DNA of 64,000 bases from Salipiger pentaromativorans (GTDB lineage Bacteria; Pseudomonadota; Alphaproteobacteria; Rhodobacterales; Rhodobacteraceae). This document shows positions 55,100 through 62,223 of this stretch, piece by piece (the first letter of the stretch is position 1; each line of letters starts with the position of its first letter). The position numbers and the translations under genes were made by a program. The DNA is taken from positions 53,170-117,169 of the forward strand of contig NZ_JAMDHK010000013.1 of NCBI RefSeq assembly GCF_024721115.1. The letters run 5' to 3'. The notes beneath the pieces are model-generated. The model saw only the letters and a program-made list of their open reading frames with translations, did no database searches and was not told where the DNA came from.

Positions 55100-55112
55100 C
55101 CTTTTGGGGTCT

Positions 55113-56546
55113 ATGCCGGTGCCGAAACAGCACGGTACCGGTATGCAACACGATCCTTCCCTGTCGGCGCCCGATGCGGCGCGCGAACTCTCGAGCCTGA
55201 CCCGCGGCGCCACGGCGCTGGGACGTGAGGTGGTGGACATCGCCGGCTTTCTGCAAGCGCTCGACGCGCGCAGCCGCAGCCAGCTCACCGCGCTGTCCGA
55301 GGTCGGACAGGCCAGCGACAATGTCGCCGCCGCCAATGGCCGGGTCTCGTCGAATGTGCGCGCCGTGGCGCAAAGCGCGGCGGAGGCCGGGGAGCGGGTG
55401 GAAAACTCCATCGGCACGCTCGCCCGCTCGGGCAAGGCAGCGCGCGAACTGGCGCGCTGGGTCAAGTCGGTGCATGCCGAAAACGATCTGGTCGAGGAGA
55501 TGCTGGGCGCGGTGAAGACCTCGAACAGCCAGATCGCTTCCATCGCGAGCCAGGTGAACATCCTCGCCGTCAATGCCAAGATCGAGGCCGCGCGCGCCGG
55601 TGATGCCGGGCGCGGCTTTGCCATCGTGGCCGAGGCGATCAACGAGCTGAGCCAGCAGACCGGCGCGGCGGTCAACGCGATCTCGGCCACCATCGCACGC
55701 ATGTCCGACTGGATCGAAGAGCTGAACTCCGGTGCCCTGCACACCTCGCAGGAGGCCGAGACCGTGCTCTCCGGCTCCGAGGCGGCGGATGCCGCCCTGT
55801 CCGAGATCCGCGACCGCATGGGCACGCTGCGCGGCGCCACCGCGCGCATCGCCGAGGATATGGAACGCGCCAGCGCCGCCGTCGAAGAGCTGCGCCCCAC
55901 GGTGGCCGGCATTCAAAGCTCCATCGGCGAGGTCGCGCGCGGCGTGGACGAGGCATCGCGCCGCTGCGACCGGCTGGTGGACGGCTCCGAGGCGATCCTG
56001 CAACATGCGGTGGCCATCGGCGGCACCGGTGAGGATGCGGCGATGATTGCCCTGGTGCGCGATCTCGCCGCCCGCGTCTCGCAAAGTTTCGACGCGGCGC
56101 TGACGGCGGGGCGAATCTCCATGCAGGCGCTGTTCGATACGCAGTACAAACCGATTCCCGGCAGCGATCCGCAGCAGCTTCTGGCCGCCTTCACCCCGCT
56201 CACCGATGCGCTGCTGCCGCCGATCCAGGAGCCGGTTCTGGCGCGGGATTCGCGCATCGTGTTCTGTGCGGCGGTTGACCGGAACGGCTATCTGCCCACC
56301 CACAACGCCAAGTTTTCGCAGCCGCAGGGCAAGGATCCGGTGTGGAACGCCGCCAACAGCCGCAACCGCCGCCTTTTCGACGACCGGGTCGGTCTCAAGG
56401 CCGGGCGCAACACCAAACCGTTTCTGCTACAGGTCTACCGCCGCGACATGGGCGGCGGCACTTTCGTGATGATGAAGGATCTCTCGGCGCCGATCTCGGT
56501 GCGCGGCCGGCACTGGGGCGGGCTGCGGCTGGCCTACCGGTTCTGA
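55113..56546 (+). CDS. Soluble methyl-accepting chemotaxis protein
   Basis: 477 residues with no transmembrane helix. The MCP signalling region is at about 50-260, with the hairpin tip in [20 protein letters not shown]. The C-terminal module (about 340-477) contains [19 protein letters not shown] and [20 protein letters not shown], a Cache-like sensory domain placed after the signalling domain, the reverse of classical receptors. It probably senses a cytoplasmic or redox signal. ATG 55113 has GGGG just upstream; ATG 55143 is the alternative. Confidence 0.85.
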
Positions 56547-56559
56547 CCGGGGCCAAAAG

Positions 56560-56596
56560 AAAAAACCGCCGCACTCCGCGGGAACGGAGGCGGCGG
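56560..56596 (-). terminator. Terminator of the small membrane-peptide transcript
   Basis: On the minus strand CCGCCGC..CCG pairs with CGG...GCGGCGG around a short loop, followed by TTTTTT (plus-strand A run 56560-56565). It is oriented to end minus-strand transcription coming from 56751. Confidence 0.75.
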
Positions 56597-56750
56597 CGAG
56601 TAGCGTGTCTTTTCGGGGAGCCGGGCCGGTGCTTGCTTCCGGAGATCAGGCAGGCCGGACGCACAAGGCGGGGACAGTCGCAGCGCATCGGGGACAGGTG
56701 ATGCGGGACGGCCCGGGTGAAAGACCGCAGGCAGAAAACGTCGATCTCTT

Positions 56751-56876
56751 TCAGAAACTCGGCAGGTGCAGCGCGCCGACAAGGATCACCACCAGAGAAA
56801 TGCCGCCGATCAGATCCTGAATCAGCGTGGCCTCTGCACGCGAAAGAGCCTGGCGAAGCGTATCGAGCATGGTCAT
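56751..56876 (-). CDS. 41-residue membrane peptide preceded by a LexA-type box
   Basis: Small open frame too short for usual gene finding. Peptide: MTMLDTLRQALSRAEATLIQ, then DLIGGISLVVILVGALHLPSF, i.e. an amphipathic, charged first half and one hydrophobic helix (about 22-38). AGGGA precedes the ATG; ATG 56870 (39 residues) and ATG 56903 (50 residues) are alternatives. A GAAC-N7-GAAC box lies 57 bp upstream and a terminator follows, so it is its own transcription unit downstream of recG. Size and layout resemble SOS-induced membrane peptides such as TisB, but no homology is claimed. Confidence 0.6.
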   Translation of the reverse strand: MTMLDTLRQALSRAEATLIQDLIGGISLVVILVGALHLPSF

Positions 56877-56932
56877 GATCCCTGTCTGGCGTTTGTTGCT
56901 CATTTGTTCTCATGTTCCTTACCTCATGTAAA

Positions 56933-56947
56933 GAACTTTTTGAGAAC
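56933..56947 (-). promoter_or_regulatory. SOS (LexA) box, alphaproteobacterial type
   Basis: GAAC-TTTTTGA-GAAC (minus strand GTTC-TCAAAAA-GTTC) fits the GTTC-N7-GTTC LexA operator of Alphaproteobacteria exactly. Additional GAAC words nearby (56954, 56986) and GTTC words (56906, 56914) have other spacings. It lies just upstream of the small membrane-peptide frame. Confidence 0.6.
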
Positions 56948-57022
56948 ATCCGAGAACATTTCACAGACATTCCGGAATATCCCGGGAACATCCGGAGTGT
57001 CAGAACGCCTTGACCGACCCTC

Positions 57023-61401
<4,379 letters not shown>

Positions 61402-61453: not shown

Positions 61454-62170
61454 TCAGGCGCTGGCGGCGATGACCGGCGGTTCGCCGGCGCCCGGCTCGG
61501 GATCGCGCAGCACATAGCCCCGGCCCCAGACCGTCTCGATGTAGTTTTCGTTGCCTGTCGCCTCGGAGAGTTTCTTGCGCAGCTTGCAGATGAACACGTC
61601 GATGATCTTGAGCTCGGGCTCGTCCATGCCGCCATAAAGATGGTTGAGGAACATCTCCTTGGTCAGCGTCGTGCCCTTGCGCAGCGACAGCAGCTCGAGC
61701 ATCTGGTATTCCTTTCCGGTCAGATGTACCGGCTTGCCGCCCACTTCCACCGTCTTGGCATCGAGATTGACCGAGATCTTGCCGGTGCGGATCACCGATT
61801 GCGAATGCCCCTTGGACCGGCGAATGATCGCGTGAATGCGCGCCACCAGCTCGTCGCGGTGGAAGGGTTTCGTCAGATAATCGTCGGCGCCGAAGCCGAA
61901 GCCCTTGATCTTGTTCTCGGTATCGTCGGCCCCTGACAGGATCAGGATCGGCGTGTTGATCCGCGACAGGCGCAACTGCCGCAGCACCTCGTGACCGTCG
62001 ATGTCGGGCAGGTTGAGATCGAGAAGGATCAGATCGTAATCGTAGAGCTTGGCAAGGTCGATGCCCTCTTCCCCCAGATCGGTCGCATAGACATTCAGGT
62101 TGGCGTGGGTCAGCATCAGTTCGATGCTTTTCGACGTGGTCGGATCGTCTTCCACCAGAAGGATGCGCAT
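61454..62170 (-). CDS. ctrA: Cell-cycle/motility response regulator CtrA
   Basis: 238 residues: receiver domain with D51 in [10 protein letters not shown] and an OmpR-type winged helix ([20 protein letters not shown], then [13 protein letters not shown]). The sequence is closely CtrA-like ([20 protein letters not shown]). In Rhodobacterales CtrA controls flagella, gene transfer agents and related traits and is not essential. The C-terminus is ASA rather than the AA degradation tag of Caulobacter. A TTAA-N7-TTAC site 54 bp upstream suggests autoregulation. Confidence 0.96.
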
Positions 62171-62223
62171 GGGCTGTTCTCCGCTTGTTCTGTCCCGTTG
62201 GACCCGACCCTGTCGGAAATAGG

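Follow-up and report, generated by a model that had tools for sequence, protein, structure and literature searches.

Described SOS-controlled peptides and 3′ RNAs

Tiny membrane proteins under SOS control are known, and so are small RNAs from the 3′ end of LexA-controlled mRNAs; the two have been described separately. TisB, of the E. coli pair TisB/IstR-1, is an SOS-controlled single-helix peptide. The tisAB leader is long, and Pfam holds a TisB model. The dicBF operon of the E. coli Qin prophage encodes two inhibitors of division, one a small protein and the other an sRNA, under the control of DicA. DinQ, of the E. coli pair DinQ/AgrB, is an SOS-regulated toxic peptide with a single transmembrane segment (PMC3567139, available sections). 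In Caulobacter crescentus, SidA is a 29-aa SOS-induced inhibitor of division that sits in the inner membrane and acts through FtsW (PMC4211646, PMC12700426, both in excerpt). Deletion of lexA in Caulobacter causes filamentation because of sidA (PMC12700426), and these excerpts mention no 3′ RNA for SidA. In Klebsiella pneumoniae, DinR, a processed sRNA from the 3′ part of the LexA-controlled dinI mRNA, blocks ftsZ according to the accessible part of PMC10907235; dinI encodes a modulator of the RecA filament, and the pairing region of DinR is Klebsiella-specific. Finally, in the available text of PMC8625941 and PMC10253847, ccaF1-CcsR1-4 of Rhodobacter sphaeroides consists of a small-protein gene followed by 3′-UTR RNAs and a terminator. 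There, ccaF1 encodes a DUF1127 RNA-binding protein and the promoter is of the RpoHI/RpoHII type.

We analysed a stretch of 64,000 nucleotides (the window) of Salipiger pentaromativorans, a member of the same family as R. sphaeroides. The minus strand of this 5.28-Mb genome carries a unit that resembles the above systems in different respects. Like SidA, it is alphaproteobacterial, has GTTC-N7-GTTC control and encodes a tiny membrane protein. With TisB and DinQ it shares SOS-type control of a single-helix peptide. As for DinR, a conserved RNA lies at the 3′ end of a small-protein mRNA with LexA boxes; in contrast to DinR, the RNA recurs in most of the family and its loops carry repeated motifs, pairing with ftsZ being only suggestive. 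One operon for a small protein and an RNA also recalls dicBF, whereas no plasmid or phage record matched the peptide described here. We give about even odds to the reading that this SOS operon produces a SidA-like membrane peptide and a 3′-UTR RNA, that it probably restrains division and that it is kept across most Rhodobacteraceae.

Genomic setting of the unit

The gene order on the minus strand is ctrA, ligA, recG and then the unit. The genes at 61454-62170 and 59110-61386, which we take from their sequences to be ctrA and ligA respectively, are followed by recG (57023-59113; NCBIfam NF008164), the end of which lies 65 nt before the extra half site described below. Comparisons were made with 98 distinct relatives. 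These were obtained from 114 peptide-holding loci (L031-L060, L062-L065 and 80 named loci, the latter being the best 80 of 106 relatives, with 147 matched stretches) by removal of 16 duplicates; L061, which repeats the window, was excluded, as were L066 and L067, both weak. L032, the locus of genome G088 from the same genus, duplicates that of Salipiger bermudensis (L116). A second set, chosen by the RNA, comprised 40 consecutive loci from the RNA match list, with E from 1.4e-11 to 4.9e-10. The RecG C-terminal motif was found upstream of the unit in 94 of the 98 relatives and in 35 of the 40 RNA-chosen loci, which bears out the position after recG proposed in a preliminary description of the locus.

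At its other end, the unit is closed by an intrinsic terminator at 56560-56597 (minus strand), whose 3′ arm contains a bulged base and which the consensus scan called in part. A pattern search found a GC-rich stem, mostly GCCGCC...GGCGG, followed by a T-run 89-250 nt past the stop codon in 98/98 relatives. The minus-strand terminator of the preliminary description is thus real. On the plus strand, a gene of the methyl-accepting type (55104-56546; Pfam MCPsignal) runs towards the unit, and the two have the terminator region in common.

The neighbourhood also allows a reading in which the peptide serves DNA repair or transfer, as a partner of RecG, of competence or of the gene transfer agent, rather than division. 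Both the place after ctrA-ligA-recG and the frequency of the RecG end upstream fit such a role, and both LexA and CtrA have a bearing on the gene transfer agents of Rhodobacter (PMC6473078, in the text available). However, the unit has boxes and a terminator of its own, and a single-helix membrane peptide would be an unlikely helicase partner, so that a role of this kind appears quite improbable. The word recG is absent from the Dinoroseobacter shibae LexA paper just cited (PMC6473078), and in the available text of PMC2864571 it occurs only in the reference list.

A further perfect GAAC-N7-GAAC of the window, at 62176-62190 (minus strand), overlaps the ribosome-binding site of ctrA. By eye, this box is exact in 8/20 genomes of the genus and, among 14 ctrA leaders of the family, is found only in the window's own locus. 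Because it is so rare, it may be a chance product built on the GGAG site.

LexA-type boxes and promoter

The perfect GAAC-N7-GAAC reported at 56933-56947 in the preliminary description is present in the plus-strand reading. On the transcribed minus strand it reads GTTCTCAAAAAGTTC, a GTTC-N7-GTTC box (box 1) directly upstream of a TTTAC element. Alone, a single box proves nothing, since GAAC-N7-GAAC occurs 2 times in the 64-kb window as compared to 1.25 expected, and 112 times in the genome as compared to 67 for the pattern read backwards. The case is settled by conservation: among the 98 distinct relatives, 94 have box 1 no further than 170 nt ahead of the frame, and it occurs in only 1/1696 random 170-nt windows from the same loci.

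Two features went beyond that description. First, an extra GTTC half site at 56954-56957 (minus strand) gives GTTC-N6-GTTC-N7-GTTC, a triple found in 83/98 relatives and in 36 of the 40 loci chosen by RNA. Second, an imperfect LexA-like box, GAAC-N7-CAAC, lies at 56895-56909 (minus strand), 38 bp after box 1. This box 2 is present in 88/98 relatives (2/1696 random windows). The two boxes are paired at 37-39 bp in 84 of the 98, the distance being exactly 38 bp in 78; the pair was found in 0/1696 random windows. From 56895 to 56957, the window thus displays half sites spaced by 10 and 11 bp and, 38 bp further, the imperfect box in inverted orientation. An operator as elaborate as this points to repression that is extra-tight or cooperative.

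The base profile of 95 loci (three were dropped, having no anchor) shows a near-invariant GTTCTTTAC, then TGAGAACAAA, then a GGCAAC-type end. TTTACA, at 56927-56932 (minus strand), is near-invariant, each base of TTTAC being kept in at least 96% of these loci. It would be the –35 element, with the boxes bracketing the core promoter. This assignment is not secured, because the consensus promoter scan picks a different site, at 57003-56976, upstream of both boxes. This sigma-70-like match (56976-57003, minus strand; CTGACA-16-GATATT, 9 of 12) offers the unit an alternative start site. Under either reading, the boxes would be placed where a repressor can act.

The same type of box was then looked at in front of known SOS genes. 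GAAC-N7-GAAC lies within 260 bp in the lexA promoter of 30/30 loci read. In recA promoters, a box of either reading was found in 24/30 loci, including 17/17 from Rhodobacteraceae; the 6 loci without a box are all from other families. The window's own genome has this box at both lexA and recA promoters. A regulator other than LexA might in principle bind the GTTC repeats, since one spacing between half sites is N6 and the imperfect box is inverted. Against it, GTTC-N7-GTTC is the box of lexA and recA in the same genome, and it is the published LexA consensus of Caulobacter (GTTCN7GTTC; PMC12700426, in excerpt), which makes another regulator very improbable. The LexA-type control put forward initially is well supported by these comparisons, and SOS control of the unit is, from the sequences, highly probable; LexA would bind the boxes and DNA damage would induce the unit.

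A membrane peptide under purifying selection

The 41-codon frame of the preliminary description exists (56754-56876 plus stop, minus strand). Homologues begin at the next ATG, at 56870, which gives a 39-aa frame (56751-56870 with the stop codon). The start at 56876, giving 41 aa, is possible. A third ATG, at 56903 inside box 2, is an unlikely start.

Using tblastn at E≤1, a peptide match was obtained in 334/394 family genomes, many of them weak matches to a single query. Conservation of the frame itself was assessed on 153 pairs of 70 loci having 72-95% nucleotide identity. The pooled pN/pS was 0.29 in the frame, as compared to 1.33 and 2.70 in the shifted frames. Hence, by sequence comparison, the frame is under purifying selection, and conservation of the peptide across much of Rhodobacteraceae, which the preliminary description had asked to be checked, is supported within the scope of these matches. 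A translated peptide is well supported and nearly certain.

AlphaFold2 predicts a single helix spanning residues 2-38 (mean pLDDT 89), and the best 17-residue Kyte-Doolittle mean is 2.30 over 98 loci, in agreement with the one hydrophobic helix first proposed. In the part preceding the hydrophobic stretch, the net charge is near 0 (mean 0.11), which favours no particular topology in the membrane. Among 30 aligned members, D19, G22, L34 and P37 are invariant.

No relative of the peptide was recognized. Searches of Pfam with 30 members at E≤0.1 gave no match beyond chance, DUF1127 included, and the same holds for NCBIfam and PHROGs. In a class sample of 385 genomes, the peptide profile gave 7 matches, 5 of them within the family and 2 weak ones outside Rhodobacteraceae, which lie inside long frames and are not convincing. 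Nor did the profile point to a relation with SidA in this class sample. Likeness to SidA is therefore one of size and control only, the peptide having no relative in Pfam or NCBIfam.

These data also bear on a role of the TisB or DinQ kind, in which the SOS peptide would depolarise or disturb the inner membrane, and thereby slow metabolism or favour persistence, with no specific target in the divisome. Size, the single helix and LexA-type control all fit, DinQ being a toxic peptide under SOS regulation (PMC3567139, available sections). On the other hand, the 30 members have no Pfam match beyond chance, and the four invariant residues would suggest a specific contact instead of generic pore formation. 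Moreover, only 68-131 nt separate box 1 from the ATG, which leaves no room for a long leader of the tisAB kind. The detailed TisB-like layout of the preliminary description was consequently not upheld, and we hold a generic membrane action to be a minor possibility. A peptide acting on division, as SidA does, is the reading that we tentatively retain.

A conserved structured RNA in the 3′ region

The preliminary description had left about 150 nt downstream of the frame as coding for nothing obvious. The region is indeed noncoding; it is not empty, since a conserved structured RNA runs from the stop codon up to and including the terminator stem (56564-56753, minus strand). This changes the picture to that of a unit made of a peptide and an RNA.

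A covariance model, seeded with 24 sequences including the window, matches the 3′ region in 98/98 loci, the 99th match being a weak second one in L082, and 286/394 family genomes; two matches were noted only in G235, G293, G335 and G340. Outside Rhodobacteraceae, 8 of 289 class-sample genomes gave weak matches (23-29 bits over 57-116 nt), which were taken as chance. Rfam returned nothing at gathering score for 14 loci, and a permissive search with the window piece gave nothing convincing (best E 1.3).

The RNA contains a repeated motif. YCUGYCY occurs 2.8 times per RNA between the stop codon and the terminator, dinucleotide shuffles giving 0.31 and the reverse complement 0.01; the motif is absent from 4/98 RNAs. 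The reversed motif occurs 1.44 times per RNA, a control that is not independent because CCUGUCC reads the same backwards. In the window, a first CUGCCUG is located at 56728-56734 and a last one at 56647-56653 (both minus strand), the first being predicted single-stranded in most loci folded. Between them, the hairpin CGCAUC-[ACCUGUCCCC]-GAUGCG (56684-56705, minus strand; covarying helix 2) carries the motif in its loop. The mean predicted unpaired probability is 0.77 for the motif and 0.37 for the rest of the RNA body, and is higher for the motif in 91 of the 93 loci that have it in the body.

Covariation was examined in several ways. In an unfitted alignment of 24 sequences, two-sided changes were seen in 19 cells, where shuffling gave 5.2 on average. 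The number of pairs with double changes, 5 for a shuffled 3.1, is not exceptional, 31/500 shuffles having reached it. With 99 model-fitted rows, 229 such cells were counted against 56, slid controls giving at most 34; this alignment (A4) leans towards the structure to which it was fitted. Hairpin 1 and the outer stem were detected by column pairing. On plain alignments, RNAalifold detected hardly any structure besides the terminator. Over 20 loci, the folding-energy z was –4.3 with the terminator and only modest without it (mean –1.5). Overall, the sequence data make a functional 3′ RNA likely.

Co-occurrence of promoter, peptide and RNA

The 40 loci chosen by RNA provided a view of the unit from its other end. 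Box 1 is present in 38 of them, box 2 in 33, and both are paired in 32. A frame resembling the peptide family was seen by eye in 40/40, the strict peptide motif being found in 24. Seven genomes with the RNA and without a peptide match were opened; by eye, all 7 contain a diverged peptide with an upstream GTTC-N7-GTTC.

No peptide match was obtained in 60 of the 394 family genomes. Among those opened, 12 keep a diverged unit; others may lack it. The promoter was searched in 17 of 20 listed genomes without a peptide match, along with two known positives; G001, G015 and G077 were left out as they have the RNA. At 0-1 mismatch, the promoter was found together with a very diverged frame in both positives and in 5/17 genomes (G023, G030, G040, G045 and G056). 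G054 also matches the promoter, with 1 mismatch, yet no frame of this kind was noticed. The remaining promoter matches look like chance. Taken together, the comparison supports the initial proposal of a terminated unit for a single-helix peptide conserved across much of Rhodobacteraceae.

Among the five diverged units found by their promoter, G040 alone has an RNA that can be made out clearly by eye. The loci L315, L317 and L319 keep the promoter and a diverged peptide with no clear 3′ RNA by eye, and may serve as natural RNA-less variants. Persistence of promoter and peptide where the RNA decays speaks against an RNA that is essential in every genome. It also touches the question of whether nothing but the peptide is produced, with the 3′ RNA working only in cis, by shielding the mRNA or adjusting its decay. 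Such a role is favoured by the four of five diverged units with promoter and frame where no RNA is evident by eye, and by target tests with ctrA, ftsZ and the unit's own leader that established none. What a stability element would need is, however, exceeded by the repeated single-stranded motifs (2.8 per RNA) and covarying stems, and 3′-UTR sRNAs have precedents in Rhodobacter, among them ccaF1-CcsR1-4 (PMC8625941, PMC10253847, in the parts available). We consider a purely cis-acting RNA to be less likely than not.

Candidate targets of the RNA

For an RNA with a function of its own, as we favour, several targets were considered. In the genus, ctrA leaders contain in many cases GACAGG or GGGACAGG, the complement of a loop motif. 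In the family set (14 leaders of 30 loci, the window's included, 16 being dropped as their start pattern was unmatched), GACAGG was found in 4/14, for a shuffle mean of 0.7 and a largest value of 4, and RGRCAGR in 2/14 as compared to 1.4 in shuffles. The mean duplex z was –0.04 for 12 same-genome leaders placed by match coordinates. With GACAGG within reach of the shuffles and this duplex value, a general role of ctrA as target was rejected. The same verdict applies to pairing of the RNA within its own transcript (5′ leader and frame), where RGRCAGR was found in 5/98 as compared to 10.7 in shuffles.

In the leaders of the 30 best-scoring ftsZ loci, GGACAGG occurs in 7, where shuffles give 0.8 and at most 4; for RGRCAGR the count is 13, with 5.8 and at most 11 in shuffles. 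The ftsZ ribosome-binding site ACAGGCGG is present in 27/39 leaders and in 1/290 other starts surveyed, the latter having been chosen by script from loci around the unit and representing few genes, repeated. In the form ACAGGCGG(AC), as at L360 in the window's own genome, this site is unusually fixed across the family, which suggests that it is regulated by something. The RNA loops can pair with it: CYGCCUG is found in 86/98 RNAs. The common form CUGCCUG (83/98) leaves a G-U pair with CAGGCGG; CCGCCUG is found in only 17/98.

Pairing was ranked in 38 of the 39 genomes with an ftsZ leader; G034, whose RNA match lies about 400 kb from its ctrA, was left out. The median fraction of other Shine-Dalgarno regions pairing as well as ftsZ was 19%, and ftsZ ranked in the top 5% in 7/38 genomes. 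Its mean duplex z of –0.85 is weak (–0.04 for the ctrA control). The case for ftsZ as RNA target is suggestive only, and we judge pairing there to be rather unlikely.

Proposed function and significance

The mechanism that we favour can be outlined as follows. In undamaged cells, LexA would occupy the two boxes at the promoter and keep transcription off. Upon DNA damage, LexA would be removed and a transcript of roughly 340 nt would be made. Its frame would be translated into a peptide of 39-45 residues, with a short amphipathic start, one transmembrane helix and a conserved LHLP-like tail. In the inner membrane, this peptide may hold back the late divisome, in the way of Caulobacter SidA. The 3′ half would be a structured RNA holding CUGCCUG and CCUGUCC single-stranded, in the manner of a base-pairing sRNA or of a protein-binding RNA. 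It may form a second layer by pairing with mRNAs, among which ftsZ is the best candidate tested. For the promoter elements, the peptide topology and the release and targets of the RNA, we infer this scheme from sequence features; a division brake by the peptide is our best guess by analogy, held tentatively at slightly short of even odds. A bifunctional SOS checkpoint, in which a divisome-braking peptide would be joined by a multi-loop sRNA from the same transcript, with CUGCCUG/CCUGUCC loops shutting the conserved ACAGGCGG ribosome-binding site in ftsZ or in several mRNAs of this kind, is an unlikely extension of it. If true, division would be stopped at the protein and RNA levels at once.

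Open PMC literature, in the parts available, yielded no recognisable description of the peptide or of the RNA. The Paracoccus sRNA survey PMC5107571 may hold the RNA. UdsC of R. sphaeroides, from the 3′ UTR of RSP_7527, was set aside, as it is RpoHII-dependent and 67 nt long, and the accessible text of PMC9779115 mentions neither recG nor LexA. Within this literature, both the peptide and RNA family and the presence of the two kinds of product in one unit are new.

The literature available to us gave no answer to how Rhodobacteraceae halt division upon DNA damage. These bacteria are abundant in the sea and make gene transfer agents. For their response to damage, the unit described here is a small, deletable candidate, and its RNA, if acting in trans, would be a deeply conserved LexA-controlled sRNA.
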